Assembly (NCBI RefSeq): GCF_003386195.1
Contig: NZ_QRDX01000001.1
Span: forward strand, 310,001-374,000
Length of the DNA: 64,000 nucleotides
Source: Seonamhaeicola aphaedonensis
GTDB taxonomy: Bacteria > Bacteroidota > Bacteroidia > Flavobacteriales > Flavobacteriaceae
Reading direction: 5' to 3'
Shown here piece after piece: positions 14,257 to 27,487 of this stretch (positions within the stretch are counted from its first letter, which is position 1; every line of letters starts with the position of its first letter). The position numbers and the translations under genes were made by a program. The notes beneath the pieces are model-generated. The model did not search any database. It had not been told where the DNA came from and saw nothing but the letters and a program-made list of their open reading frames with translations.

Positions 14257-15203
14257 TCTACCTCCCAATTATCGGTTCTATAATTGTCATCATCTCCTTG
14301 TAGAATTTGCAAATAACTGCGGTATCTAGAAAAAGCTATTTCCTCCTTATCAAGTGCTTTTTTTACGGCACACTTGGGTTCTTGTATGTGTAAACAATTA
14401 TTAAATTTACAATCTTGTTTTAGGGCAAATATTTCAGGAAAATAGTCTCCTACTTCTTCTTTATCCATATCTACCACTCCAAAACCTTTAATACCAGGTG
14501 TGTCTATAATTTTTGCATTAGCATCAAGATCATACATTTCAGCAAATGTTGTAGTATGTTGCCCTTGCATATGCAAGGTTGAAATCTCTTTTGTCTTTAA
14601 ATTCAAATCTGGTTGAATGGCATTTACCAAAGTTGATTTACCAACTCCTGAATGACCAGAAAACATACTTACTTTGTCTTTCATTAAGGCTTTTACCTTA
14701 TCAATATTTTTTCCTGTTTTAGCTGACACACCAATACATTCATACCCTATTTTTCGGTAAACATGTGCTAAATATTTCACCTCTAAAAGGCTTTCCTCAT
14801 CATAAGTATCAATTTTATTAAACAGTAAAACGGTTTTTATGGAATAGGCTTCGGCAGTTACCAAAAACCGATCTATAAAACTGGTTAAGGTTGGCGGGTT
14901 GTTAATGGTTATCATTAAAAAAACCTGATCCAAGTTTGCCGCAATGATATGCGTTTGTTTTGACAGGTTTACAGATTTACGGACTATGTAATTTTTTCTA
15001 TCGTGAATGTTGTGTATAATTCCAGACTCAACATCATTTACTTTTTCTAATTCAAAATCTACTATATCTCCAACAGCAATGGGATTAGTACTTTTAATAC
15101 CTTTAATTCTGAATTTACCTTTAATACGGCATTGGTAAGTGTCTCCTAACTGTGTTCTTACAGTGTACCAACTTCCTGTAGATTTATAAACAAGTCCTGT
15201 CAT
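14253..15203 (-). CDS. rsgA: Ribosome small-subunit-dependent GTPase A
   Basis: A circularly permuted GTPase acting in late 30S maturation. The 316 residues show an OB fold (about 1-75), then G4 (NKID) before G1 (GHSGVGKST) and G3 (DTPG), and a C-terminal zinc knuckle CKFNNCLHIQEPKCAV. The G-motif order is the family signature. I use the ATG at 15203 (MTGLVYKSTG), not the TTG two codons upstream. It overlaps dtd by 4 bp, indicating coupled translation. Confidence 0.97.
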   Translation of the reverse strand: MTGLVYKSTGSWYTVRTQLGDTYQCRIKGKFRIKGIKSTNPIAVGDIVDFELEKVNDVESGIIHNIHDRKNYIVRKSVNLSKQTHIIAANLDQVFLMITINNPPTLTSFIDRFLVTAEAYSIKTVLLFNKIDTYDEESLLEVKYLAHVYRKIGYECIGVSAKTGKNIDKVKALMKDKVSMFSGHSGVGKSTLVNAIQPDLNLKTKEISTLHMQGQHTTTFAEMYDLDANAKIIDTPGIKGFGVVDMDKEEVGDYFPEIFALKQDCKFNNCLHIQEPKCAVKKALDKEEIAFSRYRSYLQILQGDDDNYRTDNWEVE

Positions 15204-15292
15204 ATTCAATTCAAAAATAAATTAAATTATCCGTTTTTTTTAGTAAGAATAAGTTTATATTGGTGTTTGAATTTTTTAAAAAAAACACCAAC

Positions 15293-15943
15293 ATGAAAAA
15301 ATTATTATTCTTAATTCTGTTATTTACCATTTCATTAAATGTTAAATCTCAAACCAACCTTTATGAAAACCCCGAATTTGACAAGATAGCTAAGTCACAT
15401 AAAATCATTGCTGTAATACCTTTTAAAACACAAGTAAAACTAAGACCGAAGCAAATGAAGGATATTACGGATGAAAAGCTATTTAGAATTGAAAAATCTG
15501 AAGGAGAAAGTATCCAAACAGCAATGTATTCTTGGTTTTTAAAAAGAAAGAAAAGAGGAAAACTTCAAACTTTAGAAGTTCAAGATCCAAAAGTCACAAC
15601 AGCTTTACTGAAAAGAAATGATATTAGTTATGCTAATATTACAGAGTTCACTCCTCAAGAATTAGCCACAATACTTAAAGTTGATGCCGTAATCTCGGGA
15701 GAATATGAAACTAACAAACCAATGTCAGAAGGAGCATCAGTTGCACTTGGTTTACTTGTTGGATTTTGGGGAAGTACCAATAGTGCCATTATTAACATGA
15801 GTGTACACAATGCTGAGGATGGCGTTTTATTGTGGAATTACAATAAAAAAGTTAGAGGTTCAATTGGTAGTAGTCCAGAAGATTTAATAAATATTTTAAT
15901 GAGAAAAGCTTCGAGAAGATTATCCTACACAAAAAACGATTAG
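15293..15943 (+). CDS. Exported protein of unknown function, CsgG/LpoB-like fold suspected
   Basis: 216 residues with a clear signal peptide (MKKLLFLILLFTISLNVKSQ), so it is periplasmic or surface-exposed. The mature part begins a beta-alpha pattern (HKIIAVIPFKTQV), then VDAVISGEYE, a Gly/Ala-rich hydrophobic segment (GASVALGLLVGFWG) and DGVLLWNYNKKVRG. This arrangement resembles CsgG, LpoB and GNA1162-type proteins, which is inference only. I chose the ATG at 15293 since it heads the signal peptide; the upstream ATG at 15260 would add 11 residues and spoil it. It is a single-gene unit convergent with the aromatic operon and ends at a shared terminator. Confidence 0.7.
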   Translation: MKKLLFLILLFTISLNVKSQTNLYENPEFDKIAKSHKIIAVIPFKTQVKLRPKQMKDITDEKLFRIEKSEGESIQTAMYSWFLKRKKRGKLQTLEVQDPKVTTALLKRNDISYANITEFTPQELATILKVDAVISGEYETNKPMSEGASVALGLLVGFWGSTNSAIINMSVHNAEDGVLLWNYNKKVRGSIGSSPEDLINILMRKASRRLSYTKND

Positions 15944-15950
15944 AATAACA

Positions 15951-15976
15951 AAAAGCCTCACTTAAGTGAGGCTTTT
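15951..15976. terminator. Bidirectional intrinsic terminator
   Basis: A perfect 26-bp palindrome (AAAAGCCTCACTT and its complement) between two convergent genes, with A runs on one side and T runs on the other. It can serve both the plus-strand exported protein and the minus-strand aromatic operon. Confidence 0.88.
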
Positions 15977-15999
15977 CTTTCTGTTTATATGTAAAATAA

Positions 16000-17082
16000 T
16001 TATCCGTTTATGATCTTCTCTTGATGATTGATAGATTCTTGGTGAATAGCTTTAAACATTTTCAAAACAAACTCTTCACTTAAACCATGATCTTGACCTT
16101 CCAGTACCATTCTACCTAAAATTTCGTTCCAACGTTTACTTTGTAATACCGCAACATTTTTCTCTTTTTTAAGTTTACCAATGCCATCTGAAGCTTGCAT
16201 ACGCTTACCAAGCATATCAATAATTTGATTATCAATAACATCAATTTGCGCTCTCAGATTATCTAATTTACTATTGTATTCTGCTTCAGGATCTGCTTCC
16301 TTTTTCACTTTTAAATCGCGCATCATTTGTATTAACATATTTGGAGTGACTTGTTGAGAGGCGTCACTCCATGCATTTTCAGGATCGTGATGTGTTTCAA
16401 TCATTAAACCATCAAAATTAAGATCTAAAGCAATTTGAGAGATATCAAAAACCATATCTCTTTTTCCTGTAATATGCGATGGGTCATTAATTAACGGGAT
16501 GTCTGGAAATTTATTTTGAAACTCAATAGCCATTTGCCATTCTGGATTGTTTCTGAATTTGGTTTTCTCATAGGTAGAAAAACCTCTATGGATAGCTCCA
16601 ATGTTTTTAACACCAGAACTATAAATTCTTTCAATACCTCCTAACCATAATGCTAAATCTGGGTTTACAGGGTTTTTGATTAAAACTGGTTTTTCTGTTC
16701 CTTCTAGTGCATCTGCAATTTCCTGCATTATAAATGGAGACACTGTAGAACGCGCCCCAATCCAAAGCATATCAATATCATGCTCTAAAGCTAATTTTAC
16801 ATGTGCTGCATTGGCTACCTCTGTACATACCTTCATACCCGTTTCGGCCTTTACTTTTTGTAACCACTTTAAACCTAGTGCACCAACACCTTCAAACATA
16901 CCAGGTCTTGTTCTTGGTTTCCAAATACCTGCTCTAAAATAATTTACATCAGTATCTTTAAGCTCGTGAGCTATTTTTAAAACCTGTTCTTCGGTCTCGG
17001 CACTACAAGGGCCTGCAATTACTAGTGGATGGTTTAACTTCAAATCATCTAACCATGCTCTCATTTCTTTGTTGTTTTCCAT
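16000..17082 (-). CDS. Bifunctional DAHP synthase / chorismate mutase
   Basis: Residues about 1-265 are a KDO8P-like (type I-beta) 3-deoxy-7-phosphoheptulonate synthase (VIAGPCSAE near the start, FRAGIWKPRTRPG, GAIHRGFS, NDPSHITGKR), catalysing the first step of aromatic synthesis. Residues about 270-355 are a type II chorismate mutase (LDNLRAQIDVIDNQIIDMLGKRM), converting chorismate to prephenate. In Bacteroidota the mutase domain makes the synthase sensitive to prephenate-branch feedback, which is family knowledge. It is last in the pheA-aminotransferase-tyrA operon, 90 bp after tyrA. Confidence 0.95.
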   Translation of the reverse strand: MENNKEMRAWLDDLKLNHPLVIAGPCSAETEEQVLKIAHELKDTDVNYFRAGIWKPRTRPGMFEGVGALGLKWLQKVKAETGMKVCTEVANAAHVKLALEHDIDMLWIGARSTVSPFIMQEIADALEGTEKPVLIKNPVNPDLALWLGGIERIYSSGVKNIGAIHRGFSTYEKTKFRNNPEWQMAIEFQNKFPDIPLINDPSHITGKRDMVFDISQIALDLNFDGLMIETHHDPENAWSDASQQVTPNMLIQMMRDLKVKKEADPEAEYNSKLDNLRAQIDVIDNQIIDMLGKRMQASDGIGKLKKEKNVAVLQSKRWNEILGRMVLEGQDHGLSEEFVLKMFKAIHQESINHQEKIING

Positions 17083-17107
17083 AATTTTTGATAAAATTTC
17101 AAGCTTT

Positions 17108-17148
17108 AAATTCCAAAATCCAATACCTTAAAATGCTTTTTGGAATTT
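17108..17148. repeat. Intercistronic inverted repeat, tyrA to DAHP synthase
   Basis: AAATTCCAAAA at 17108-17118 and its exact complement at 17138-17148, with a 19-nt spacer, in the 90-bp gap. This kind of TTTGGAATTT repeat is common in flavobacterial spacers. It may act as an mRNA stem between the two coding regions. Confidence 0.6.
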
Positions 17149-17172
17149 GGGATTTTATTATTGTTTTTTGTG

Positions 17173-18024
17173 TTAATTAATTCCGTTTAATATGTCTTTA
17201 ATATGATTGGTATCCTTCATCTCATTATAAATAGCTTCAAAATCATCTTTTTTCATCAACTCTTTAAAATGAGTAAGGTTATTTATATACTCGTTTAATG
17301 TTTCTATAACATTGTCTTTATTCTGTTTAAAAATGGGCGTCCACATTTCTGGCGAACTTTTAGCAAGCCTTACTGTTGAAGCAAATCCACTACCGGCCAT
17401 ATCAAAGATATCACGCTCATTTTTTTCTTTTTCAATAACTGTCTTCCCTAACATGAAAGAGCTTATATGTGATAAATGTGACACATAAGCAATATGTTTG
17501 TCATGTGCTTCAGGATTCATATATCGAATGCGCATTCCCAGAGATTTAAAAATCTCTAGTGCTTTTTCCTGAAGTTTGAACGCCGTTTTCTCTACCTCAC
17601 AAATGATGTTGGTTTTACCTTCAAATAATCCACTAATAGCAGCACTTGGGCCAGAGTGCTCAGTACCCGCAATGGGATGTGCCGCTAAAAAATTTCTTCG
17701 CTTGGGATGGTTTTCAACCACTTTACAAATAGCTTGCTTAGTGGAACCAGCATCTATTACCAATGCGTTATCAGAAATCTTATCTAAAATGGCTGGCAAT
17801 AATTTTACAGTAGCATCAACAGGAATGGATACAATAACCAAATCTGCCTTGACAATATCATCTAAAGTTGCTTTCTTATCAATCAGCCCTAAATCTAATG
17901 CCTCCTCTAATGTTGAATCCTTTCTACTAATACCATGGATAACCACATTAGGGTTTTGCTGCTTGATATCTTTAGCAAGACTACCTCCTATTAACCCTAT
18001 GCCTATAAAGTAAATATTCTTCAT
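17173..18024 (-). CDS. tyrA: Prephenate dehydrogenase
   Basis: Oxidatively decarboxylates prephenate to 4-hydroxyphenylpyruvate, the tyrosine precursor. The 283 residues begin with a Rossmann motif (IYFIGIGLIGGSLAKD), followed by VIDAGSTKQAI, AAHPIAGTEHSGPSAA and a C-terminal helical dimerisation region (HIAYVSHLSHISSFMLG). No ACT or mutase domain is fused. The start lies 1 bp after the aminotransferase stop, showing tight operon packing. Confidence 0.95.
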   Translation of the reverse strand: MKNIYFIGIGLIGGSLAKDIKQQNPNVVIHGISRKDSTLEEALDLGLIDKKATLDDIVKADLVIVSIPVDATVKLLPAILDKISDNALVIDAGSTKQAICKVVENHPKRRNFLAAHPIAGTEHSGPSAAISGLFEGKTNIICEVEKTAFKLQEKALEIFKSLGMRIRYMNPEAHDKHIAYVSHLSHISSFMLGKTVIEKEKNERDIFDMAGSGFASTVRLAKSSPEMWTPIFKQNKDNVIETLNEYINNLTHFKELMKKDDFEAIYNEMKDTNHIKDILNGIN

Positions 18025-18025
18025 G

Positions 18026-19174
18026 CTACTTAGTAATTCTTGCTATACATTCCTCAATATCTTCTAGAGACGCACAAAGCGAAAACCTAATGTAACCTTC
18101 ACCTTGACTACCAAAAATAGTGCCTGGTGTAATAAAAATATGATTGTTTTTCAACACCGTATCTATAAATTCCTCAGACTTCTGGTTTGCTGACAATTTA
18201 GCCCAAACAAACATACCCGTTGCATTTTTATCGTATGTACAATGAAGTGCATCGGCTAGTTTCCAGATTAAATCACGGCGCTTTTTATAAACACTATTCA
18301 AAGTAACATACCACATTTTAGAGCATTTCAATGCTTGAATAGCACCTTTTTGAATACCGTAAAACATACCAGAATCCATATTACTTTTAACCTTAAGCAC
18401 ATTACTTATAAGCTCACTATGTCCTAGAACCATGCCTACACGCCATCCTGCCATATTAAAAGTTTTACTCAATGAATTCAACTCCAAACAAACCTCTTTA
18501 GCACCTTCTATATTAAGGATGCTCATGGGGTTATCATTAAGCACAAAACTGTAAGGATTGTCGTTAACAATTAAGATATTATGCTGCTTTGCGAAAGCCA
18601 CTAAACTCTTAAAAGCTATTTTTGAAGGCTGTGCCCCAGTTGGCATATGTGGGTAATTAATCCACATTAGCTTTACTTTGCTCAAATCTAAACTTTGAAG
18701 CGCATCAATATCCGGCAGCCAGTTATTAGAAGCATCTAAATTATAAAATACTGTTTTAGCTCCCACCAACCTAGTAACTGATTGATATGTTGGATAACCG
18801 GGATTTGGAATTAAAACTTCATCACCTTCATTTAAGAAAGCCATAGAGATATGCATAATCCCTTCTTTACTACCCATTAATGGAAGAATCTCAGAATTAG
18901 GATTTAAGCTTACCGCAAAATGTTCTTTATAAAATGTTGCCATGGCTTCTCTTAGTTCTGGCAACCCTTGATAACTCTGGTATTTATGAGCACTAGCATC
19001 TTTCAAGCTGTTTGATATAGCTTCAATGACCTTTTGTGGCGGTTGCATATCAGGGCTTCCTATACCTAAATTAATGACCTGCTTACCACTGGCTATCATT
19101 TGGTTTACCTCCCTAAGTTTTCTTGAGAAGTAGTATTCTTCTACGGTATGCAACCTGTTTGCTACTTCAATCAT
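18026..19174 (-). CDS. PLP-dependent class I/II aminotransferase, probably aromatic
   Basis: A fold-type I aminotransferase of 382 aa. N-terminal INLGIGSPDMQPP, PGYPTYQSV, the Asn/Asp region NDNPYSFVLN and the PLP lysine in SLSKTFNMAGWRVG (about residue 235) are clear. Lying between pheA and tyrA it most likely transaminates phenylpyruvate and 4-hydroxyphenylpyruvate to Phe and Tyr; specificity is inferred from context only. Its ATG overlaps the pheA stop (ATGA), so translation is coupled. Confidence 0.93.
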   Translation of the reverse strand: MIEVANRLHTVEEYYFSRKLREVNQMIASGKQVINLGIGSPDMQPPQKVIEAISNSLKDASAHKYQSYQGLPELREAMATFYKEHFAVSLNPNSEILPLMGSKEGIMHISMAFLNEGDEVLIPNPGYPTYQSVTRLVGAKTVFYNLDASNNWLPDIDALQSLDLSKVKLMWINYPHMPTGAQPSKIAFKSLVAFAKQHNILIVNDNPYSFVLNDNPMSILNIEGAKEVCLELNSLSKTFNMAGWRVGMVLGHSELISNVLKVKSNMDSGMFYGIQKGAIQALKCSKMWYVTLNSVYKKRRDLIWKLADALHCTYDKNATGMFVWAKLSANQKSEEFIDTVLKNNHIFITPGTIFGSQGEGYIRFSLCASLEDIEECIARITK

Positions 19175-19998
19175 AACTTGGCATTTTTATATTCACCCAA
19201 CACTTTAAGGCCTTCGGCCATTATTTCTATCAATGATTTTGCCTTTTTAAAATCACCGTATTCATTAAAAGTAACGTCAACAAAAAAGGCATATTTCCAA
19301 GGTGTTTCAATAATTGGTAACGACTGTATTTTAGTTAAATTCAATTTACAATCGCTCATCACATTTAAAATAGTTGCCAAACTACCTCTTTTATGATTTG
19401 CCTCAAACTTAATAGATGCCTTATTAATTTCGTTTTCAAGTACTTCAGAATTTGTGCGCTTTACAATTACAAAGCGTGTTTCATTATGTTTAATAGTTTG
19501 AATGCTCTTTCCTAAAATATCCAGTTCAAAAATCTCAGCTGCCAAAACACTAGCAATAGCACCAATACCTTTTAATTGTCCTTCTTGAATTCTTTGAGCT
19601 ACCTCAGCAGTATCCTTATCTTCTACTAACTTAATATGTGGGTATTGTTTAAAGAATTCTTTACACTGCAACAATGCCATAGGATGAGAATACACCTCTT
19701 TAATATCTTCAATAGTTTGCCCAGACAAGGCCATTAAATTATGCTGCACATCAACATAATGTTCTCCTACTATATGCAAATTATATTTATCAATTAATGC
19801 ATAATTAGGAATAATAGACCCAGCTATGGAATTTTCTAAGGCCATAATTGCTGCATCAGATTCTTCAGAAATTAAAGAATCAACCACCTCATCAAAAGTT
19901 AAACATTCAATATTATGAACTGTTTTATCAAAAAATTGTTGTGACACAATATGATGAAATGACCCCTTTACTCCTTGTATGGCAACCGTTTTAATCAT
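19171..19998 (-). CDS. pheA: Prephenate dehydratase
   Basis: Converts prephenate to phenylpyruvate. The 275 residues carry the dehydratase domain (AIQGVKGSFHHIVSQQFF at the start, ALENSIAGSI, SHPMALLQC, and NETRFVIV near residue 167) and a C-terminal ACT domain (HKRGSLATILNVMSDCKLNLTKIQS written here only by its ends, about residues 200-270), which in the family binds phenylalanine for feedback. It is the first gene of the aromatic operon. Its ATG directly follows the U run of an intrinsic terminator preceded by a Phe/Tyr-rich leader peptide. Confidence 0.96.
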   Translation of the reverse strand: MIKTVAIQGVKGSFHHIVSQQFFDKTVHNIECLTFDEVVDSLISEESDAAIMALENSIAGSIIPNYALIDKYNLHIVGEHYVDVQHNLMALSGQTIEDIKEVYSHPMALLQCKEFFKQYPHIKLVEDKDTAEVAQRIQEGQLKGIGAIASVLAAEIFELDILGKSIQTIKHNETRFVIVKRTNSEVLENEINKASIKFEANHKRGSLATILNVMSDCKLNLTKIQSLPIIETPWKYAFFVDVTFNEYGDFKKAKSLIEIMAEGLKVLGEYKNAKL

Positions 19999-20028
19999 AA
20001 AAAAAAGTCTCGATTTTCACCGAGACTT
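19999..20028 (-). terminator. Attenuator terminator directly upstream of pheA
   Basis: In the minus-strand RNA, AAGUCUCG (20028-20021) pairs with CGAGACUU (20012-20005) around an 8-nt loop, followed by a U run (20004-19999) that touches the pheA AUG at 19998. A terminator placed before the first gene of an operon is meaningful only if it is conditional. The hairpin could also hide the pheA start from ribosomes. Confidence 0.88.
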
Positions 20029-20064
20029 ATATTTAAATTTATTGTTTTAATTTATACATATAAC

Positions 20065-20070
20065 GCCTCG
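20065..20070 (-). promoter_or_regulatory. Candidate antiterminator arm
   Basis: CGAGGC here can pair with GUCUCG of the terminator's 5' arm (six pairs including one G-U). It lies 6 nt past the leader stop codon, so a ribosome finishing the leader would cover it, while one stalled on the Phe/Tyr codons would leave it free. Inferred from base pairing by eye. Confidence 0.55.
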
Positions 20071-20075
20071 TTCCT

Positions 20076-20132
20076 TTAACTAAAAAAGAAGTAATAAAAG
20101 CCAAAATATGTATAAACTGCTGTTGTTCTCAT
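20076..20132 (-). CDS. Phe/Tyr-rich leader peptide of the aromatic operon
   Basis: A short ORF, ATG to TAA, encodes MRTTAVYTYFGFYYFFFS: 9 of 18 residues are Phe or Tyr, clustered in the last 12. It lies 77 bp upstream of the pheA terminator stem-loop end and reads toward it on the same strand. This is the layout of a ribosome-mediated attenuator: scarcity of charged tRNA-Phe or tRNA-Tyr stalls the ribosome near codons 9-17, letting an antiterminator form. There is no Shine-Dalgarno, as is usual in this phylum. A short stem (GCTGT/ACAGC) flanks the start codon. The peptide itself is unlikely to have any other function. Confidence 0.85.
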   Translation of the reverse strand: MRTTAVYTYFGFYYFFFS

Positions 20133-20254
20133 AATTACAGCGGCTAAAGTAGTTAATATTTTAAGAAATCAAAATTGTAGAATTAATTTTTTATCGTTTT
20201 TTTTGAAGTTTTAGTGATTTTATAGCAAAACTTAGGTTACATTAGATAATCATT

Positions 20255-20262
20255 TAATTTTG
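20255..20262 (+). promoter_or_regulatory. Candidate -7 box of gldA
   Basis: TAATTTTG matches the flavobacterial TAnnTTTG -7 consensus 16 bp before the gldA ATG. No clear TTG at -33 is seen, so the call is tentative. Confidence 0.4.
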
Positions 20263-20277
20263 TCTGAAATTTTTATT

Positions 20278-21174
20278 ATGTCTATTAAGGTTGAAAATAT
20301 TTCTAAATTTTACGGTAATCAAAAAGCCTTAAACAACATTTCTTTTAAGGTTGACAACCCCGAAATTGTTGGTTTTTTAGGCCCCAATGGCGCTGGTAAA
20401 TCTACCATGATGAAAATTTTAACCACTTATGTAAAACCAGACGTTGGAAACGCAAAAGTTAATGAATACGATATACATAATGAAACCGAAAACGTGCAAC
20501 TAAGTGTAGGTTACTTACCAGAACACAACCCTTTATACTTAGAAATGTATATTAAAGAGTACCTCTCGTTCAATGCTGGTATTTACAAAGTACCTAAAGA
20601 GCGTATCAATGAAGTTATAGAACTCACAGGGTTAACCCCAGAAGTTCATAAAAGAATAGGGCAACTTTCTAAAGGGTATCGCCAGCGTATAGGATTAGCA
20701 ACAGCACTTTTACATAATCCTGATGTTTTAATTTTAGATGAGCCTACCACGGGTTTAGACCCTAACCAACTGGTTGACATTAGAAACCTTATTAAAACCA
20801 TTGGACAGAAAAAAACAGTCTTTCTTTCTACACATATCATGCAAGAAGTAGAGGCCATGTGTGACCGCGTTATCATTATTAATAAAGGTAACATGGTTGC
20901 CGACAAAAAATTATCTGAATTACGTAAGCAAAAAGAACAAACTGTTATTGTGGAGTTTGACTATAGAGTAGAAGATGCCTTTTTAAAACAACTTCCAAAC
21001 GTTAAAAAAGTAATTAATACTTATGATTTTGTCTATGAAATTACATTTTCTACCTCAAAAGACATGCGCTCTCATGTTTTTGATTTTGCTCATGATAACC
21101 AGCTAAAAATTCTTCAGTTAAATCAAAAAAATGCAAGTTTAGAAAGTTTGTTTAGAGAACTAACACAGTCTTAA
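20278..21174 (+). CDS. gldA: Gliding-motility ABC transporter ATP-binding protein GldA
   Basis: ATPase subunit of the GldAFG ABC transporter needed for gliding in flavobacteria. The 298 residues contain Walker A GPNGAGKST, signature LSKGYRQRIGLA, Walker B VLILDEPTTGLDP and the H-loop STHIMQEVE, followed by a C-terminal extension of about 80 residues typical of GldA. I start at the ATG (MSIKVENISKFYG), not the TTG six codons upstream. It is alone here: gldF and gldG are not adjacent, as in other flavobacteria. It diverges from the aromatic operon. General ABC-2 type ATPases are similar, so the exact symbol is slightly less certain. Confidence 0.85.
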   Translation: MSIKVENISKFYGNQKALNNISFKVDNPEIVGFLGPNGAGKSTMMKILTTYVKPDVGNAKVNEYDIHNETENVQLSVGYLPEHNPLYLEMYIKEYLSFNAGIYKVPKERINEVIELTGLTPEVHKRIGQLSKGYRQRIGLATALLHNPDVLILDEPTTGLDPNQLVDIRNLIKTIGQKKTVFLSTHIMQEVEAMCDRVIIINKGNMVADKKLSELRKQKEQTVIVEFDYRVEDAFLKQLPNVKKVINTYDFVYEITFSTSKDMRSHVFDFAHDNQLKILQLNQKNASLESLFRELTQS

Positions 21175-21363
21175 ACAAAAAAACCTTCTTTCACACATTA
21201 GTTAGATTATTGATACTAAAGCAAATCCAAAAAATCAATCTAGTTTTTATTAAAAATCATGACAAAAATCATCTTTACAACAATATTGAGGCTTTAATTT
21301 TGTACCGTATTAAAAACAAAGTAAAACAGGGAAGGGTACTTCATTAATCAGGATTTAATAAGG

Positions 21364-21371
21364 TATCTTTG
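21364..21371 (+). promoter_or_regulatory. Candidate -7 box of pta-ackA
   Basis: TATCTTTG matches TAnnTTTG 19 bp before the pta ATG. A second match, TAATTTTG, occurs at 21295-21302. Neither has an obvious TTG at the right -33 spacing. Confidence 0.42.
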
Positions 21372-21390
21372 TAAACAACAAACAGGTATA

Positions 21391-23481
21391 ATGAGCAAAG
21401 GAATTTATGTAGCCACTATAGAGTCTAATAGTGGCAAATCGGTTGTAGTCTTAGGTCTCATGCGTATGCTCTTAGGAAAGACTGCAAAAGTAGGTTACTT
21501 CAGGCCAATTATTGAAGATGTTGAAGTTGGAGAAATGGACAATCACATCAACACTGTGATTTCTCATTTCGATATAGATATCAACTACAAAAAAACATTC
21601 GCATTTACCCGAAGTGAAGTTTTAGACCTTTACAATCAGGGTAAATCTGGAGATGTTATTGATGAGATTATTAAAAAATACAAACGATTGGAAGATCGTT
21701 TTGATTTGGTTCTGGTAGAAGGAACAGACTTCTCTCATGAAAACTCTAGTTTAGAGTTAGATATCAACATGTTAATATCTAAAAACCTCGGATTACCTGT
21801 CATTATTGTTTTACATGGTGATGGTAAAAGCATGAAAGATATTGTTGATAGTGCTCAATTAGCTCATGACACCTTTAAAGAAGAGGTAGATGTGCTATCA
21901 ATTATGGCTAATAAGATTAACAAAGAAGATATTGAAGAACTTAAGTCTAAACTAGCTGAACGCATTCATAATGGAACTGATATTAGGGTTATTCCAAAAA
22001 TTAGAAGTTTAGCTAGCCCAACCATGAAAGAAATTGTTAAAGCATTAGATGCTAAAGTTTTATTTGGAAAAGATATGCTTAACAACCAAGTAGAAAATTT
22101 TGGGGTTGGCACCATGCAGTTAAGAAATTATCTAACCAAATTAAAAGATGGTTCTCTTGTTATAACTTCAGGTGACAGGGCAGATATTATTCTAGGTGCC
22201 TTACAAGCGCACGCCTCTAAAAATTACCCAAAAATTTCAGGAATTGTATTAACAGGTGGTTTACTTCCTGAAGAATCTATACTAAAACTCATTGAAGGTC
22301 TTTCAAGTGTTGTTCCTGTTATTAGTGTTCCTGGAGGCACATTCTCTGTTGCCAACGACATTGGAAAAGTGAAGTCTAGAATTTACGCTGAGAATTCTGA
22401 AAAAATTAGAACTTCAATCTCAACATTTGAAAATCATGTTGATACAGATAAGTTGGCAGAACGTTTAATTACTTTCAAATCGGATATATTCACTCCAAGA
22501 ATGTTCCAATATAATTTATTACAAAGTGCACTCAGAGACAAAAAGCACATTGTACTTCCAGAAGGTTATGACGAACGCGTACTTAGGGCCACGGCTAGAT
22601 TAGTAAATACCCGTGTAGTTGATATTACCTTGATTGGTGAACAGGAAAAAATACAATCGCTTATTGAAGAGTATGACATCCCACTTGATTTAAACGATGT
22701 TAACGTAGTATTCCCCAATCAATCAGAACATTTTGACGATTACGTAGACACCCTTTATGAACTAAGAAAACACAAAGGCGTAAATAGACAAATGGCTCAA
22801 GATATGATGGAAGACGTATCATACTTTGGAACTATGATGATTCATAAAGGTCATGCCGATGGTATGGTCTCTGGAGCTGCACATACCACACAACACACAT
22901 TGCGCCCCGCGCTTCAATTCATTAAAACAAAACCAGGTGTTAACATTGTATCATCGGTGTTTTTTATGTGTTTAGAAGATCGTGTTTCTATATTTGGTGA
23001 CTGTGCTATCAATCCAAACCCAAACGCTGAACAATTAGCAGAAATAGCTATTTCATCTGCAAAAACTGCTTTAGATTTTGGTATTGAACCTAAGGTGGCC
23101 ATGTTGTCTTACTCCTCTGGAGCTTCTGGAAAAGGTGAAGATGTTGATAAAGTTAGAAAAGCAACAGAAATTGCCAAGTCTATTGCCCCTGAATTAAAAA
23201 TTGAAGGTCCTATTCAATATGATGCTGCGGTTGATAAGCGCATTGGAAAAAGCAAATTACCAGATTCTGAAGTGGCTGGTGAAGCCAGTGTATTGATTTT
23301 CCCAGATTTAAATACAGGAAACAATACTTATAAAGCAGTACAACGAGAAACAGGTGCGTTAGCAATTGGTCCTATGTTACAAGGTTTAAACAAACCTGTT
23401 AACGATTTAAGTAGAGGCTGTACATCAGATGATATTTATAGCACCGTAATAATAACAGCCATTCAAGCTCAAGATCTATAA
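21391..23481 (+). CDS. pta: Phosphate acetyltransferase
   Basis: Interconverts acetyl-CoA and acetyl phosphate. The 696-residue long form has an N-terminal P-loop/dethiobiotin-synthetase-like domain (VATIESNSGKSVVVLGLM), a DRTGG domain (about 215-320), and the C-terminal PTA_PTB catalytic domain (about 370-690, with VLPEGYDERVLRA, ADGMVSGAAHTT and GPMLQGLNKPVNDLSRG). The length is as in E. coli Pta. The stop is followed by ackA after 2 bp, giving the standard acetate operon. Confidence 0.98.
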   Translation: MSKGIYVATIESNSGKSVVVLGLMRMLLGKTAKVGYFRPIIEDVEVGEMDNHINTVISHFDIDINYKKTFAFTRSEVLDLYNQGKSGDVIDEIIKKYKRLEDRFDLVLVEGTDFSHENSSLELDINMLISKNLGLPVIIVLHGDGKSMKDIVDSAQLAHDTFKEEVDVLSIMANKINKEDIEELKSKLAERIHNGTDIRVIPKIRSLASPTMKEIVKALDAKVLFGKDMLNNQVENFGVGTMQLRNYLTKLKDGSLVITSGDRADIILGALQAHASKNYPKISGIVLTGGLLPEESILKLIEGLSSVVPVISVPGGTFSVANDIGKVKSRIYAENSEKIRTSISTFENHVDTDKLAERLITFKSDIFTPRMFQYNLLQSALRDKKHIVLPEGYDERVLRATARLVNTRVVDITLIGEQEKIQSLIEEYDIPLDLNDVNVVFPNQSEHFDDYVDTLYELRKHKGVNRQMAQDMMEDVSYFGTMMIHKGHADGMVSGAAHTTQHTLRPALQFIKTKPGVNIVSSVFFMCLEDRVSIFGDCAINPNPNAEQLAEIAISSAKTALDFGIEPKVAMLSYSSGASGKGEDVDKVRKATEIAKSIAPELKIEGPIQYDAAVDKRIGKSKLPDSEVAGEASVLIFPDLNTGNNTYKAVQRETGALAIGPMLQGLNKPVNDLSRGCTSDDIYSTVIITAIQAQDL

Positions 23482-23483
23482 CT

Positions 23484-24686
23484 ATGGAAGTATTAGTATT
23501 AAACTCCGGGAGTTCATCATTGAAATTTCAATTATTCTCAATGCCAGAAGAACGTATTATTTGTTCAGGACAAATAGAACGCATTGGTTTTGAAGATGCC
23601 ATTTTTAAATTTAAAACAAATAGTAACACCATAGAAAAAGTAACTCCGGTTAAAAATCATAAACAAGGATTAAAACTAGTTGCTGAACAACTTTTAGACC
23701 ATAAAACTGGCGTTATTCAATCTCCCGATGATATTACTATTGTGGGACATAGAGTGGTTCATGGTGGAAAACACTTTAGTGAAACCACAGTAATTACTAA
23801 TGAGGTTAAAGAAAAAATTAAAGCATTATCCTCTTTAGCTCCCCTACACAATCCAGCAAATTTAGAAGGTATTGAAGTAGCTGAGGAAGTCTTTAAAAAC
23901 GCTAAGCAGGTAGCAGTTTTTGATACAGCTTTTCATCAGTCTATTCCAGAAAAAGCTTATAAATACGCTATTCCAAATGAATATTTAGAAAAACATCACA
24001 TTCGCCTCTACGGATTTCATGGTACAAGCCATAAGTACGTTTCTGAAAAGGCTATTGAGTTTCTCGGAAAAAAAGATTCAAAAATCATTTCAATTCACTT
24101 AGGTAATGGTTGTAGTATGACTGCTATTAAAAATGGTAAAAGTATTGATCACTCATTAGGATTCTCACCTGTAAATGGTCTTATTATGGGAACTCGCTCT
24201 GGAGATATTGATCCCTCTGTTATCTTTCATTTAGCCGAACGTCATGGGTTTGAGTTAAAAGACATCAATAACATGCTTCAAAAACAAAGTGGCATGCTTG
24301 GTCTTACTGGTTATAGTGACTTACGTGAAATTCAAAAGGAGGCAGAAAAAGGTAATAAAAATTGCATACTAGCCTTAGAGATGAACGCCTACCGAATTAA
24401 AAAATATATTGGTAGTTATGCCGCCATTATGAACGGACTAGATGCCATTATATTTACCGCTGGCATTGGAGAAAATTCTGCTGATATGCGGGAACGTGTT
24501 TGTAAAGATTTGGATTATTTAGGCATTGAATTAGACACCAAAAAAAATCAGGTGCGTTCTGATGAAATTAGAGCTATCAATAAAGACACTGGGTTAACTA
24601 AAATACTGGTAATCCCCACCAATGAAGAGTTGGAAATTGCAAAACAATCTGTAGCCTTATTCAAAAATCAATCGGCCCTTATATAG
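23484..24686 (+). CDS. ackA: Acetate kinase
   Basis: Converts acetyl phosphate and ADP to acetate and ATP. The 400 residues show the N-terminal VLNSGSSSLKFQL, HRVVHGG, FDTAFHQSIP (catalytic Asp), HLGNGCSM, MGTRSGDIDP and FTAGIGENS. Length and order are canonical. Its last 30 bp overlap, in the opposite direction, the end of the GIN-domain lipoprotein gene; both reading frames end at natural termini, so this is a true convergent overlap. Confidence 0.98.
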   Translation: MEVLVLNSGSSSLKFQLFSMPEERIICSGQIERIGFEDAIFKFKTNSNTIEKVTPVKNHKQGLKLVAEQLLDHKTGVIQSPDDITIVGHRVVHGGKHFSETTVITNEVKEKIKALSSLAPLHNPANLEGIEVAEEVFKNAKQVAVFDTAFHQSIPEKAYKYAIPNEYLEKHHIRLYGFHGTSHKYVSEKAIEFLGKKDSKIISIHLGNGCSMTAIKNGKSIDHSLGFSPVNGLIMGTRSGDIDPSVIFHLAERHGFELKDINNMLQKQSGMLGLTGYSDLREIQKEAEKGNKNCILALEMNAYRIKKYIGSYAAIMNGLDAIIFTAGIGENSADMRERVCKDLDYLGIELDTKKNQVRSDEIRAINKDTGLTKILVIPTNEELEIAKQSVALFKNQSALI

Positions 24687-25400
24687 TTCCTCCACAATAA
24701 CTGTGTTAGGTCTGTTTTTAGAAATTACATTACCCACACTGCTAATTATTCCTTGAATACGCTGCATTGGGTTAACAATCATGTCATTAGTTCCTCTATG
24801 CCAAATCTGAATGTTTTGTGCATTTAGATTTTCACCTTCAAAACGTCCATTTCCTGATGCAAAGGTAACATGAAGATTATTAGTGTTACCAGAAACGAAA
24901 CAGTTAGATAAGTTATTAAACACTAATCTAAAGCTATTATTGTCTATTTGCAGCCTAAAATTACCGTTTGTAATAGTACCTGGAGCACCAAAATCTTCAG
25001 ACAAGATAGTTAAATCTGGATACGTTAAAACACCTTCAGAACTAATATCGTACTGCGTAGAACTTCGTATTTCACTAATATTGGGGACTGTAACATATAC
25101 TTTGGTAACACCATAATTACGAACATAATTACAAGTGTTATTGTCTGTTAATATCAATTGATTATCAACTACAACAGCTGTAATATCATTTATAAGATTT
25201 TCTCCTGTTTCTATAACAACCTTTTGAGCGCCTTCTTTAACAATTAGTTCAATATCTCTATTAACCAAAATTTTATTGAAGATACCAAGCGCTACTTCAT
25301 CTTGAATAATCTTTCCTGTTTTTTGAAAACAATCACTTGCATTCTCACTATCACAAGCAAAAATTAAAACGATTAATAATATATATGGTAACTTTTTCAC
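24657..25400 (-). CDS. GIN-domain (DUF2807) lipoprotein
   Basis: 247 residues with a lipoprotein signal (lipobox IFAC, Cys16), so it is membrane-anchored in the envelope. The body is the right-handed beta-helical GIN/DUF2807 fold (FNKILVNRDIELIVKEG, then repeated short strands NGRFEGENLNAQNIQIWHRG given here by its ends). Function is unknown; such proteins are abundant in Bacteroidota. The start codon is GTG, overlapping the stop of the PagL-like gene (GTGA), so the two are coupled. The 3' end overlaps ackA by 30 bp on the other strand. Confidence 0.83.
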   Translation of the reverse strand: MKKLPYILLIVLIFACDSENASDCFQKTGKIIQDEVALGIFNKILVNRDIELIVKEGAQKVVIETGENLINDITAVVVDNQLILTDNNTCNYVRNYGVTKVYVTVPNISEIRSSTQYDISSEGVLTYPDLTILSEDFGAPGTITNGNFRLQIDNNSFRLVFNNLSNCFVSGNTNNLHVTFASGNGRFEGENLNAQNIQIWHRGTNDMIVNPMQRIQGIISSVGNVISKNRPNTVIVEELYKGRLIFE

Positions 25401-26494
25401 AATCGTATTCCTATTCCCAATTCCACAGCTTCGGCTTTAAAACCATGAGATTTTAGTGTCAATGCCCCAAACCACTTACTGCCAAAATATCGCTTTATTC
25501 CAACCCTAACATAGGTCTGCCCTTCAAAATCAAACGGATAATACACATAGTATCCCAGTTGGGTAATTAAACTTAATTTATTTACAAATAATTCATGACC
25601 TGCAAAAATACCAATACGTTTATAATCTTCGTCACCAGACAAATTATCATTTGGAAAAGCAACACTCCTATACTTAATATATTCCTTTAGGAAATTGGAA
25701 AAGAACACATCGGCACCAAATTGCAAAGCACTTTTAATATTAATTCGTTTATCTGCATAAGCAGAAAAAACATAAAATGGAAACTGCCCACTCCCTACAA
25801 TATCGCTTTCATTGACCCCGCTACGGAAAACCAAATTGTATTTTAGAGGTTCTGCAAATTTATTATCATTCTCTTGTAAAGAACTCTGATATTCAGGATC
25901 CTCATTATCTAAACTATAGGTTATTCCCAAATTCAAAGTCATCGAATTTATACTCGTGTTTGGAGCCTTTACATTAGCATTAGAATAATGTATAAGAGAC
26001 AATCCTCCCTGCAAACCAAATCTATCAAAAAGGTGTTCCTTCTTATAATTCAACATGACATAGGTGCTACTCATAAGCCTAGTTCCAAAAGCAATATTTC
26101 TAAAATTAGTTTCTCTATTATAGGGATTTGTAGTGTAGGCTAACCCCTGACCAACACGCATCATCAAGTTTCTTTTAAAAAAATAAAAATTATAATGTGC
26201 ATAAATTGAGTAGTTATTTCCTAGCACACTGTTCTTTAAATTTTGGTATGCAAAAGAAAGACCATAATCTGGATAGTTATAACGTTGCTCCCACGCCTGA
26301 TAACCAAAGGTTTTTTTATTCCAACTTAAAATAACACCTTCGGGATGCCCTTGAATTAAGTGTAGAATATCGTTGTTATGAAGTGCTATATTACCCTTAA
26401 AGTAATTAACATCAAAATAAGAGGAATATTTATTTTCCTGTGCAAAAGAAACAGAAGAACAAACAATAAAAGAGCAGGTTAAAAAAAGCCTCAT
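25397..26494 (-). CDS. Acyloxyacyl hydrolase / PagL-like lipid A deacylase
   Basis: A 365-residue outer-membrane protein: signal peptide (MRLFLTCSFIVCSSVSFA) and predicted beta-strands throughout. The segment GLSLIHYSNANVKAPN holds the His-Ser pair and Asn pattern of the PagL active site, which removes the 3-O acyl chain of lipid A. It is longer than classic PagL (about 150-180 aa), as is usual for the Bacteroidota family members, with a C-terminal extension of unknown role. I start at the ATG heading the signal peptide; the upstream TTG is not needed. It forms a two-gene unit with the GIN lipoprotein. Confidence 0.72.
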   Translation of the reverse strand: MRLFLTCSFIVCSSVSFAQENKYSSYFDVNYFKGNIALHNNDILHLIQGHPEGVILSWNKKTFGYQAWEQRYNYPDYGLSFAYQNLKNSVLGNNYSIYAHYNFYFFKRNLMMRVGQGLAYTTNPYNRETNFRNIAFGTRLMSSTYVMLNYKKEHLFDRFGLQGGLSLIHYSNANVKAPNTSINSMTLNLGITYSLDNEDPEYQSSLQENDNKFAEPLKYNLVFRSGVNESDIVGSGQFPFYVFSAYADKRINIKSALQFGADVFFSNFLKEYIKYRSVAFPNDNLSGDEDYKRIGIFAGHELFVNKLSLITQLGYYVYYPFDFEGQTYVRVGIKRYFGSKWFGALTLKSHGFKAEAVELGIGIRL

Positions 26495-26530
26495 TAATGG
26501 GTTGCTTATAGCGCAAATGTAACACAATAT

Positions 26531-27487
26531 TTAAAACAATGCGGAAGCTATTGCCTTTATATTATCGCTTTTACCCATGGAGTAATAGTGTAATACCGGT
26601 ACGCCAGCCTCTTTTAACTCTTTAGATTGTTGAATAGCAAATTCAATACCTACTTGCCTTACCGCTTGATTATCTTTACAAGCCTCTACAGAATCGATTA
26701 GGTCCTGAGGTAAATCTATTTTAAATACCTGTGGTAGTAATTGTAAATGACGCTTAACCGCAATTGGTTTAATACCTGGAATAATTGGGATTGTTATTCC
26801 CATGTTCCGTGCTTTCTCAACAAACTCAAAATATTTCTGATTATCGAAGAACATCTGTGTTACCACATAATCTGCTCCTGCATCAACCTTTTGCTTCAAG
26901 CGTTTCAAGTCGGTTTGTAATGATGGTGCTTCCATATGTTTTTCCGGATACCCCGCCACACCTATACAAAAATCAGAATAATGCTCTACTTCAACATCAT
27001 CATGAAGGTACTTACCTCTATTTAAGTTAGCTATTTGCTCCACCAAGTCACAAGCATAAGCATGACCTCCCTTTACAGGTTTAAAATACGGTTCATCTTT
27101 CATAGAATCTCCTCGTAAAGCCATCACATTGTCTAGACCTAAATAATGACAATCTACCAGTACATATTCGGTTTCCTCTTTAGTAAAACCACCGCAAAGC
27201 AAATGCGGGATAGCATCTACTTGATACTTGTGCATAATAGAGGCACAAATACCCACCGTACCAGGACGCATACGCGTAATACGTTTATCTAAAAGTCCGT
27301 TGCCTTTATCAATATAAACATACTCCTCTCTAGAAGTGGTTACATCTATAAACGGTGGATTAAACTCCATTAATGGGTCTATATTATTGTATAAATCCTG
27401 AATATTTTTCCCCTTCTTAGGTGGAATTACCTCAAACGAAAACAATGTTTTTCCCTTTGCTTCTTTTATATGGTCTGTTACTTTCAT
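26531..27487 (-). CDS. metF: Methylenetetrahydrofolate reductase
   Basis: Reduces 5,10-methylene-THF to 5-methyl-THF, the methyl donor for MetH. The 318 residues form the FAD-binding TIM barrel (FSFEVIPPKKG near the start, DVTTSREE, NVMALRGD near residue 122, ADYVVTQMFFDN near 211, IPIIPGIKPI near 233). Length is normal. It is the last gene of the SAM-riboswitch-controlled metH operon, 120 bp after metH part 2; that spacer carries two palindromic repeats. Confidence 0.97.
   Translation of the reverse strand: MKVTDHIKEAKGKTLFSFEVIPPKKGKNIQDLYNNIDPLMEFNPPFIDVTTSREEYVYIDKGNGLLDKRITRMRPGTVGICASIMHKYQVDAIPHLLCGGFTKEETEYVLVDCHYLGLDNVMALRGDSMKDEPYFKPVKGGHAYACDLVEQIANLNRGKYLHDDVEVEHYSDFCIGVAGYPEKHMEAPSLQTDLKRLKQKVDAGADYVVTQMFFDNQKYFEFVEKARNMGITIPIIPGIKPIAVKRHLQLLPQVFKIDLPQDLIDSVEACKDNQAVRQVGIEFAIQQSKELKEAGVPVLHYYSMGKSDNIKAIASALF

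Follow-up and report, generated by a model that had tools for sequence, protein, structure and literature searches.

Genes and features at the locus

The window (the whole stretch of Seonamhaeicola aphaedonensis DNA that was analysed, 64,000 nucleotides in length) carries on its minus strand pheA, a class I/II aminotransferase gene, tyrA, and a gene for DAHP synthase fused to chorismate mutase, together a phenylalanine and tyrosine pathway. A previous inspection of the bare DNA, here called the sequence-only reading, proposed that a leader peptide controls pheA-tyrA-aroF by attenuation; all three genes were present, with the aminotransferase between pheA and tyrA. None of the matches listed for the aminotransferase (25 of 72 families) reached an NCBIfam cut-off. 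The divergent neighbour of the operon was gldA. The genes and the elements upstream of them were located as follows.

16000..17082, minus strand: aroF-type DAHP synthase fused to chorismate mutase (PF00793 and PF01817, above cut-offs)
17173..18024, minus strand: tyrA, prephenate dehydrogenase (NF006307, 390.7 bits against a cut-off of 295)
18026..19174, minus strand: class I/II aminotransferase (PF00155, E = 2.8e-63)
19171..19998, minus strand: pheA, prephenate dehydratase (PF00800, E = 8.9e-55)
19999..20006, minus strand: terminator U-run, 8 T, the first two within the stem (from the sequence)
20005..20028, minus strand: intrinsic terminator hairpin, 10 bp, loop GAAA (terminator scan, folding and relatives)
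20021..20032, minus strand: arm 3, ATATAA GTCTCG, common to antiterminator and terminator (pairing)
20052..20061, minus strand: 3' strand of helix 1:2, ATATGTATAA, overlapping the arm 2 extension (folding and relatives)
20058..20070, minus strand: arm 2, 5' strand of the antiterminator, with the core CGAGGC at 20070-20065 and the extension GTTATAT (duplex with arm 3)
20106..20115, minus strand: arm 1, TTATACATAT, within the codons V-Y-T-Y, partner 20061-20052 (pairing and shuffles)
20076..20132, minus strand: leader ORF MRTTAVYTYFGFYYFFFS, 18 codons, nine of them Phe/Tyr (ORF reading, relatives and gap pattern)
20144..20174, minus strand: promoter-like element, TTTTG (20174-20170), 18 nt, TACTTTAG (20151-20144) (motif in relatives)

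The leader ORF described by the sequence-only reading was found on the minus strand, with its ATG at 20132 and its TAA stop at 20078-20076. Nine of its 18 residues are Phe or Tyr; the short ORF is thus rich in codons for the products of the operon, and the genes downstream produce the amino acids that it would sense. Behind it on the minus strand follow AGGAA, CGAGGC, GTTATATGTATAA, a spacer, and the terminator. CGAGGC had been placed 6 nt after the stop: it does start at the sixth nucleotide, but only 5 nt lie between. The terminator, AAGTCTCGGT-GAAA-ATCGAGACTT (20028-20005), stands between the leader and the first gene of the operon, and a scan of 19500-20500 yielded one terminator-like site, compared with 0.2 in shuffles. 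Its stem is 10 bp long, one G-U pair included, and not 8 bp as first described; the U-run does touch the pheA start, with the last T at 19999 and the ATG at 19998.

Pairing of CGAGGC with GUCUCG as an antiterminator was supported, but the helix is longer than had been proposed, adding TTATAT:ATATAA. The duplex of arms 2 and 3 in the window had an energy of -13.0 kcal/mol (z = -3.6, p = 0.010). The two-way choice of the earlier scheme is extended by a third helix, in which arm 1 (20115-20106) pairs with 20061-20052 and competes with the antiterminator (window p = 0.03). The leader as a whole (20140-19996) folded with z = -4.36, and none of 200 shuffles was as stable. In a scan of both strands of the 64 kb for ATG ORFs of 9-45 codons with at least six aromatics per 15 residues, followed by a terminator no more than 90 nt away, two sites were returned: the pheA leader (nine aromatics) and a 38-residue ORF at 58330-58214 (six aromatics). 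All the elements described by the sequence-only reading were thus confirmed to be present at 19999-20132.

Conservation among close relatives

Close relatives were obtained by scanning bacterial genomes with the pheA protein; the best 80 of 572 loci encoding a relative (77-94% protein identity) and the window make up the 81 close loci described here. An aromatic leader and a GTCTCG..CG.GA.TTTTT terminator lay upstream of pheA in 80/80 of these best relatives; the terminator pattern was composed after inspection of the 80 loci, all of which were kept. The alignment held 78 distinct sequences, since three of the 81 rows were identical over 122 nt and were left out. Gaps in the span of leader and arm 2 (columns 10-76) were all 3 or 6 nt long (34 and 6 occurrences), and those in the spacer behind arm 2 were 1, 2 or 3 nt (149, 61 and 11). 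At most aromatic codon columns Phe and Tyr, and TTT and TTC, interchanged while the aromatic class was retained. Aromatic codons and hairpin are therefore both conserved in relatives, as the sequence-only reading needs. Trp occurred in the leader core of 44 of the 81 loci.

A promoter-like motif was also conserved. TTG stood exactly 18 nt from TAnnTTAGC upstream of the leader in 72/81 close loci, and TTT without TTG in the remaining nine; the gap from the motif to the next ATG was 10 nt in 46/81 loci and 11 nt in the window. The TTTTG-18 nt-TACTTTAG element would correspond to a Bacteroidota -33/-7 promoter. Transcription in Bacteroidota starts a few bases behind the -7 box; if so here, the leader would be nearly leaderless. 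No Shine-Dalgarno-like stretch was seen by eye before the leader ATG. The motif points to a transcription start upstream of the leader ATG, and not downstream of 20076, where a start would have told against the sequence-only reading.

Loci L038, L047, L068 and L069 carried about 100 extra nucleotides between this motif and the leader ATG, and L049 a shorter, possible remnant. The insert has a hairpin-like core (AACATCC/GGATGTT in two) followed by TTGCATGT. It had no Rfam match, and of 259 loci, two contained its 13-base core.

Pairing was well maintained across the 78 sequences. Helix 1:2 was paired in 97.1% of 780 cells, with two-sided changes in six cells, all U-A to C-G at a single pair; none of 500 shuffles reached six cells, but the number of pairs with a two-sided change (one) was not above shuffles in this close set (388/500). 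The duplex of arms 2 and 3 was paired in 90.1% of 624 cells; in the close set its covariation did not exceed that of shuffles, and no pair showed a two-sided change. The terminator was paired in all of 780 cells (100%), with one-sided changes only. Since relatives this close gave no usable covariation signal for arm 2, arm 3 or the terminator, such a signal was sought in more distant genomes.

The leader ends in two ways. In 74 of the 81 close loci it reads through arm 2 (typically as SKRNEALYV) and ends 10-22 nt past the start of that arm; in seven, the window included, it ends 2-5 nt before arm 2. The long form is found in Seonamhaeicola algicola, the short one in the window and in S. sediminis, which is the closest among the best 80 of 572 relatives, and the early stop of the window is therefore probably of recent origin. 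By the model, this minority form masks arm 2 less well. For the window, with its early stop, the earlier claim that a ribosome finishing the leader covers CGAGGC is only partly true.

The distance from terminator to pheA bears on a different explanation, in which the main role of the hairpin at 20028-20005 is to conceal the start of pheA until translation of the leader opens it. The sequence-only reading had raised blocking of the start codon as an additional effect. It holds for the window, where the U-run adjoins the ATG, and 40 of the 81 close loci likewise have the terminator end at most 9 nt from the start. In the other 41 the distance is 27-100 nt, yet hairpin form and U-run are kept in 81/81, and a U-run would have no role in translational control. 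Start-codon blocking was thus rejected as a general mechanism, and control of pheA mainly through translation seems quite unlikely.

Distribution in the order, class and phylum

A covariance model of the element (R1) was run against 296 genomes from the order, with strict filters and a threshold of E <= 0.001. It gave 36 matches in 35 of the genomes, a lower bound because of those filters, and 34 of the 36 lay upstream of a pheA start. The other two (in G048 and G091) were terminators behind other genes. In the genome of the window's own strain, the pheA site alone was a strong match; seven weaker ones (E from 0.02 to 6.3) had no aromatic leader and mostly resembled gene ends with a terminator.

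As a search with the leader model itself would presuppose the answer, a second sample of genomes was chosen by the PDT domain alone, with no reference to the leader. A genome was counted as positive if an ATG ORF with at least six aromatics in 15 residues stood upstream of pheA with an intrinsic terminator within 90 nt; 2 of 2600 dinucleotide shuffles passed this test. In total 130 genomes were tested. For 27 of these the stretch had been cut around a model match; 13 of the 27 belong to the PDT sample, and a retest anchored on pheA left their results unchanged (11 positive, two negative). The sample covered 63 of the 69 genomes of the order with pheA (the other six all belong to family f16), 28 of the 31 from other orders of the class, and 25 of the 77 from other classes. 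Counts by family label were tallied by hand.

Leader and terminator preceded pheA in all 21 sampled genomes of the same family, in 28 of the 63 examined from the same order (69 with PDT), in 18 of 28 from other orders of the class (31 with PDT), and in 1 of 25 from other classes of the phylum (77 with PDT). The negatives within the order were concentrated: no leader was found at pheA in the 19 genomes examined of family f5 or in the 13 examined of family f16, which have 0.6-Mb genomes, and without these two families the count for the order is 28/31. In 8 of the 19 f5 genomes a long reading frame on the same strand ends within 30 nt of pheA. The pattern looks as if attenuation had been lost in reduced genomes. 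These absences, together with those in 10/28 genomes of other orders and 24/25 of other classes, where pheA stands without a leader, were counted against the attenuation reading. Two class genomes (c69) with leaders of 12 and 10 aromatics per 15 residues had no terminator by the pattern and were scored negative.

One locus (L261, G025:C25:18787-19034) carries tandem aromatic leaders, MNNLVSTFRFFGFFFFRKEGAMS and MNQNTQQNFSFFGFFFFKWKSEAVD, with two terminators before one pheA.

Pairing of the arms across species

The densest 15 residues of 60 positive leaders contained in total 297 Phe, 189 Tyr and 23 Trp. Of these, 41 leaders, distinct in family and terminator arm, were retained, and in each the region from the last aromatic codon to the terminator was paired against the 5' arm of the terminator. 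The resulting antiterminator was better than in the leader's own shuffles at p <= 0.05 in 37/41 and at p <= 0.01 in 26/41; the competing helix 1:2 reached p <= 0.05 in 28/41. Joint changes of the arms are visible by eye: CGAGGC/GTCTCG in the window is replaced elsewhere by AGGATTGT/ACAATCCT, CGGGAC/GTCCCG or AGCGGGA/TCCCGCT.

As a control, arm 3 was exchanged between species. The summed energy of the leaders' own pairs was -615 kcal/mol, compared with -393 (sd 18) for permutations; the best of 20000 permutations reached -465, so that none attained the value of the own pairs. The own region ranked among the first three of 41 for 21 of the 41 arms, with three expected, and when one leader per family was used (18 families), again 0/20000 permutations reached the own value. 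Comparison across species thus shows that arms 2 and 3 coevolve, a signal that comes from the wider set only. The sequence-only reading had called for an alignment with conserved aromatic leaders and covarying stems: the former appear throughout the relatives, the latter in the wider set but not among close relatives.

In the 41 leaders, the median distance from the last aromatic codon to the beginning of arm 2 is 8 nt (range 0-13). The leading edge of a ribosome stalled at that codon would end at about this point.

These results also bear on whether the ORF could encode a small functional protein rich in aromatic residues, with the hairpin a separate, constitutive terminator. The ORF is indeed conserved and constrained in frame, as such a protein would be, but outside the aromatic run the peptide varies across the class, and what is kept are the aromatic codons, their distance to arm 2 and the pairing of arms 2 and 3. 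The 34 of 36 model matches that precede pheA in the order also speak against it, and we consider a functional small protein very improbable.

Predicted folding with a ribosome in place

Folding of the window leader was computed for the transcript as far as the 3' arm of the terminator, that arm excluded, with an assumed start at 20138 and a ribosome footprint from A-15 to A+11 held unpaired. For an A site on any of codons 3-17 the antiterminator had a probability of 0.93-0.99, and once the A site reached Ser18 or the stop the value was 0.00, so that the flip falls exactly behind the last Phe codon; the probability was 0.17 on codon 2 and, without a ribosome, 0.25 (0.39 in the calculation over 41 leaders described next). 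The antiterminator, which excludes the terminator, is thus exposed on stalling in the computed structures. For the full-length RNA at equilibrium the terminator had a probability of 0.96-1.00 at every ribosome position; the choice must therefore be made co-transcriptionally, and the model needs kinetic folding.

Across the 41 leaders and six footprint settings, the antiterminator had a mean probability of 0.94-0.98 for a ribosome on aromatic codons and 0.17-0.26 for one at the stop; with the 3' edge at A+11 and the upstream RNA blocked it was 0.98 and 0.19, respectively. Depending on the setting, 33 to 41 of the 41 leaders had a probability on aromatic codons that was more than 0.3 above that at the stop.

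Two values count against a tight switch. With no ribosome present, the antiterminator had an average probability of 0.76 across the 41 leaders, which implies that an untranslated leader would tend to read through and not to terminate in many species, and that helix 1:2 by itself is not sufficient for the off-state in many of the 41. In the window, with the upstream RNA blocked, the antiterminator kept a probability of 0.66 at the stop, the third highest of the 41; the off-state must then lean on helix 1:2 after the ribosome has moved on. By this model, a tight switch in the window would require that helix 1:2 can form around the ribosome that finishes the leader, or after it.

Proposed mechanism

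The comparative tests (relatives, arm pairing, swaps and folding) support the reading first put forward from the sequence, that the element is a ribosome-mediated transcription attenuator of the pheA operon, and we hold this to be very probably correct. The leader, the three mutually exclusive helices, their conservation and the coevolution of arms 2 and 3 follow directly from the compared sequences; the start, translation, stalling and termination in vivo are inferred from them. The proposed order of events is as follows: transcription would start a short way before the leader ATG. With an ample supply of charged Phe- and Tyr-tRNA, the ribosome would clear the aromatic codons and mask arm 2 (partly, in the window); arm 1 would then pair with the 3' part of arm 2, leaving arm 3 free to form the terminator, and the operon would be off. 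When charged tRNA of either kind is scarce, the ribosome would stall on one of the nine aromatic codons and occupy arm 1. With arm 2 free, pairing of arms 2 and 3 would precede synthesis of the 3' strand of the terminator, and pheA-aminotransferase-tyrA-aroF would be transcribed.

Could the RNA instead sense an amino acid or tRNA directly, as a riboswitch or T-box-like element, with the ORF incidental? The strong, conserved fold would suit such an element. No Rfam family, T-boxes and known riboswitches included, reached its gathering score within 15000-27000 of the window, nor, Flavo-1 excepted, in 20 diverse loci, and among Rfam families at gathering and relaxed thresholds none explains the pheA leader site. 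Helix 1 lies within codons, moreover, and the distance from last aromatic codon to arm 2 is narrow (0-13 nt); we consider direct sensing hardly credible. Flavo-1 RNA (RF01705) exceeded its gathering score at L110 2785-2862 and L118 2884-2961, the exception among the 20 diverse loci, more than 1 kb from the pheA leader in both. That the upstream ORF merely boosts pheA translation by reinitiation, as PMC4833913 proposes for leader genes in general, is suggested by the presence of a leader ORF near pheA and is extremely improbable, as 77 nt separate 20076 from 19998 with the terminator between, whereas according to that paper the distance from leader stop to gene start in Bacteroidetes peaks at 11-14 bp.

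Relation to known leaders

Ribosome-mediated attenuation is a textbook mechanism in enteric bacteria. The enterobacterial Phe leader (pheL-pheA, pheM-pheST; RF01859) likewise has a Phe-rich peptide and a terminator before pheA, and works by the same logic. The window is not a member of that family (21.0 bits, E = 0.36, gathering score 55); its leader mixes Phe and Tyr, 44 of the 81 close loci also having Trp in the core, and its operon adds tyrA and DAHP synthase. A Phe-coding upstream ORF likewise precedes a terminator at an aromatic gene in the uORFC-13-1 motif, which PMC8632094 reports upstream of aroF, and only from Acholeplasma and environmental sequences. On the evidence of sequence comparison, the pheA leader is a very well supported further case of a known type of attenuator.

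Within the phylum, a section of PMC9723704 describes for Flavobacterium psychrophilum a structured 5' element upstream of pheA, also in other Flavobacteriaceae genera and without Rfam hits, and strong clues from the transcriptome for leader-peptide attenuation upstream of amino-acid biosynthesis operons. Very likely this is the same element as that of the window; the section on it gives no leader sequence, arms or class-wide distribution (PMC9723704). For Bacteroides thetaiotaomicron, of the same phylum, a passage of PMC7366714 reports leader-like sORFs in long 5' UTRs, but the gene it names is the hypothetical BT_4401 and not pheA. In the literature consulted, including sections or passages of PMC4833913, PMC9723704, PMC7366714, PMC2864571, PMC8305728 and PMC8632094, we found no account of the leader, its arms or its class-wide spread; one may exist in subscription papers, such as a 2010 survey of attenuation to which PMC4833913 refers.

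Bacteroid-trp RNA (RF01692) is listed for Bacteroidetes in a table of PMC2864571. It belongs to the same phylum but has Trp codons and another site: it had no match at gathering score in 15000-27000, and the window's own genome carries it elsewhere (64.8 bits, cut-off 49). This further feature, a covariance match with leader and terminator recognised by eye, is placed as follows.

L082 1501-1625 (G000:C4:152008-152132): Bacteroid-trp leader MNNILNHTWWWCFRN

The start of this leader resembles Psychroserpens pheA leaders (MNTLNHTYYNWFYFFF, L071), hinting, at the level of sequence, at a common origin of the phe and trp leaders.

The same genome likely also has a his attenuator (L259; G000:C2, upstream of hisG 307276-307740), with MTFIQTHHHFHICSQAK followed by a terminator; by eye, a pairing is possible between CTCAAGCG at the end of the leader and CGTTTGAG in the terminator arm. 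A search of the genome for a His-codon pattern gave 52 matches, too many to be of use, and the leader was found upstream of hisG instead.

Implications

Leader-peptide attenuation has been little described in Bacteroidota, for which the pheA leader offers a class-wide, worked-out case. It is a candidate Rfam family and a possible reporter for Phe/Tyr starvation. AUG initiation seemingly near the 5' end, without a Shine-Dalgarno sequence, becomes directly testable in the phylum. Since attenuation needs a ribosome close behind RNA polymerase and a quick start on the leader, the same holds for coupling of transcription and translation.

Tentatively, and at somewhat less than even probability, the element may be an ancient aromatic attenuator of the Bacteroidia, lost in some families and in the 0.6-Mb genomes, whose leader lies near the 5' end without a Shine-Dalgarno sequence, which integrates Phe and Tyr in one peptide, joined by Trp in roughly half of the close loci, and whose arms 2, 3 and 4 were rewritten together across families. 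If this is true, kinetic coupling of RNA polymerase and ribosome in this phylum would follow from it, given that the genome also has trp and his leaders.
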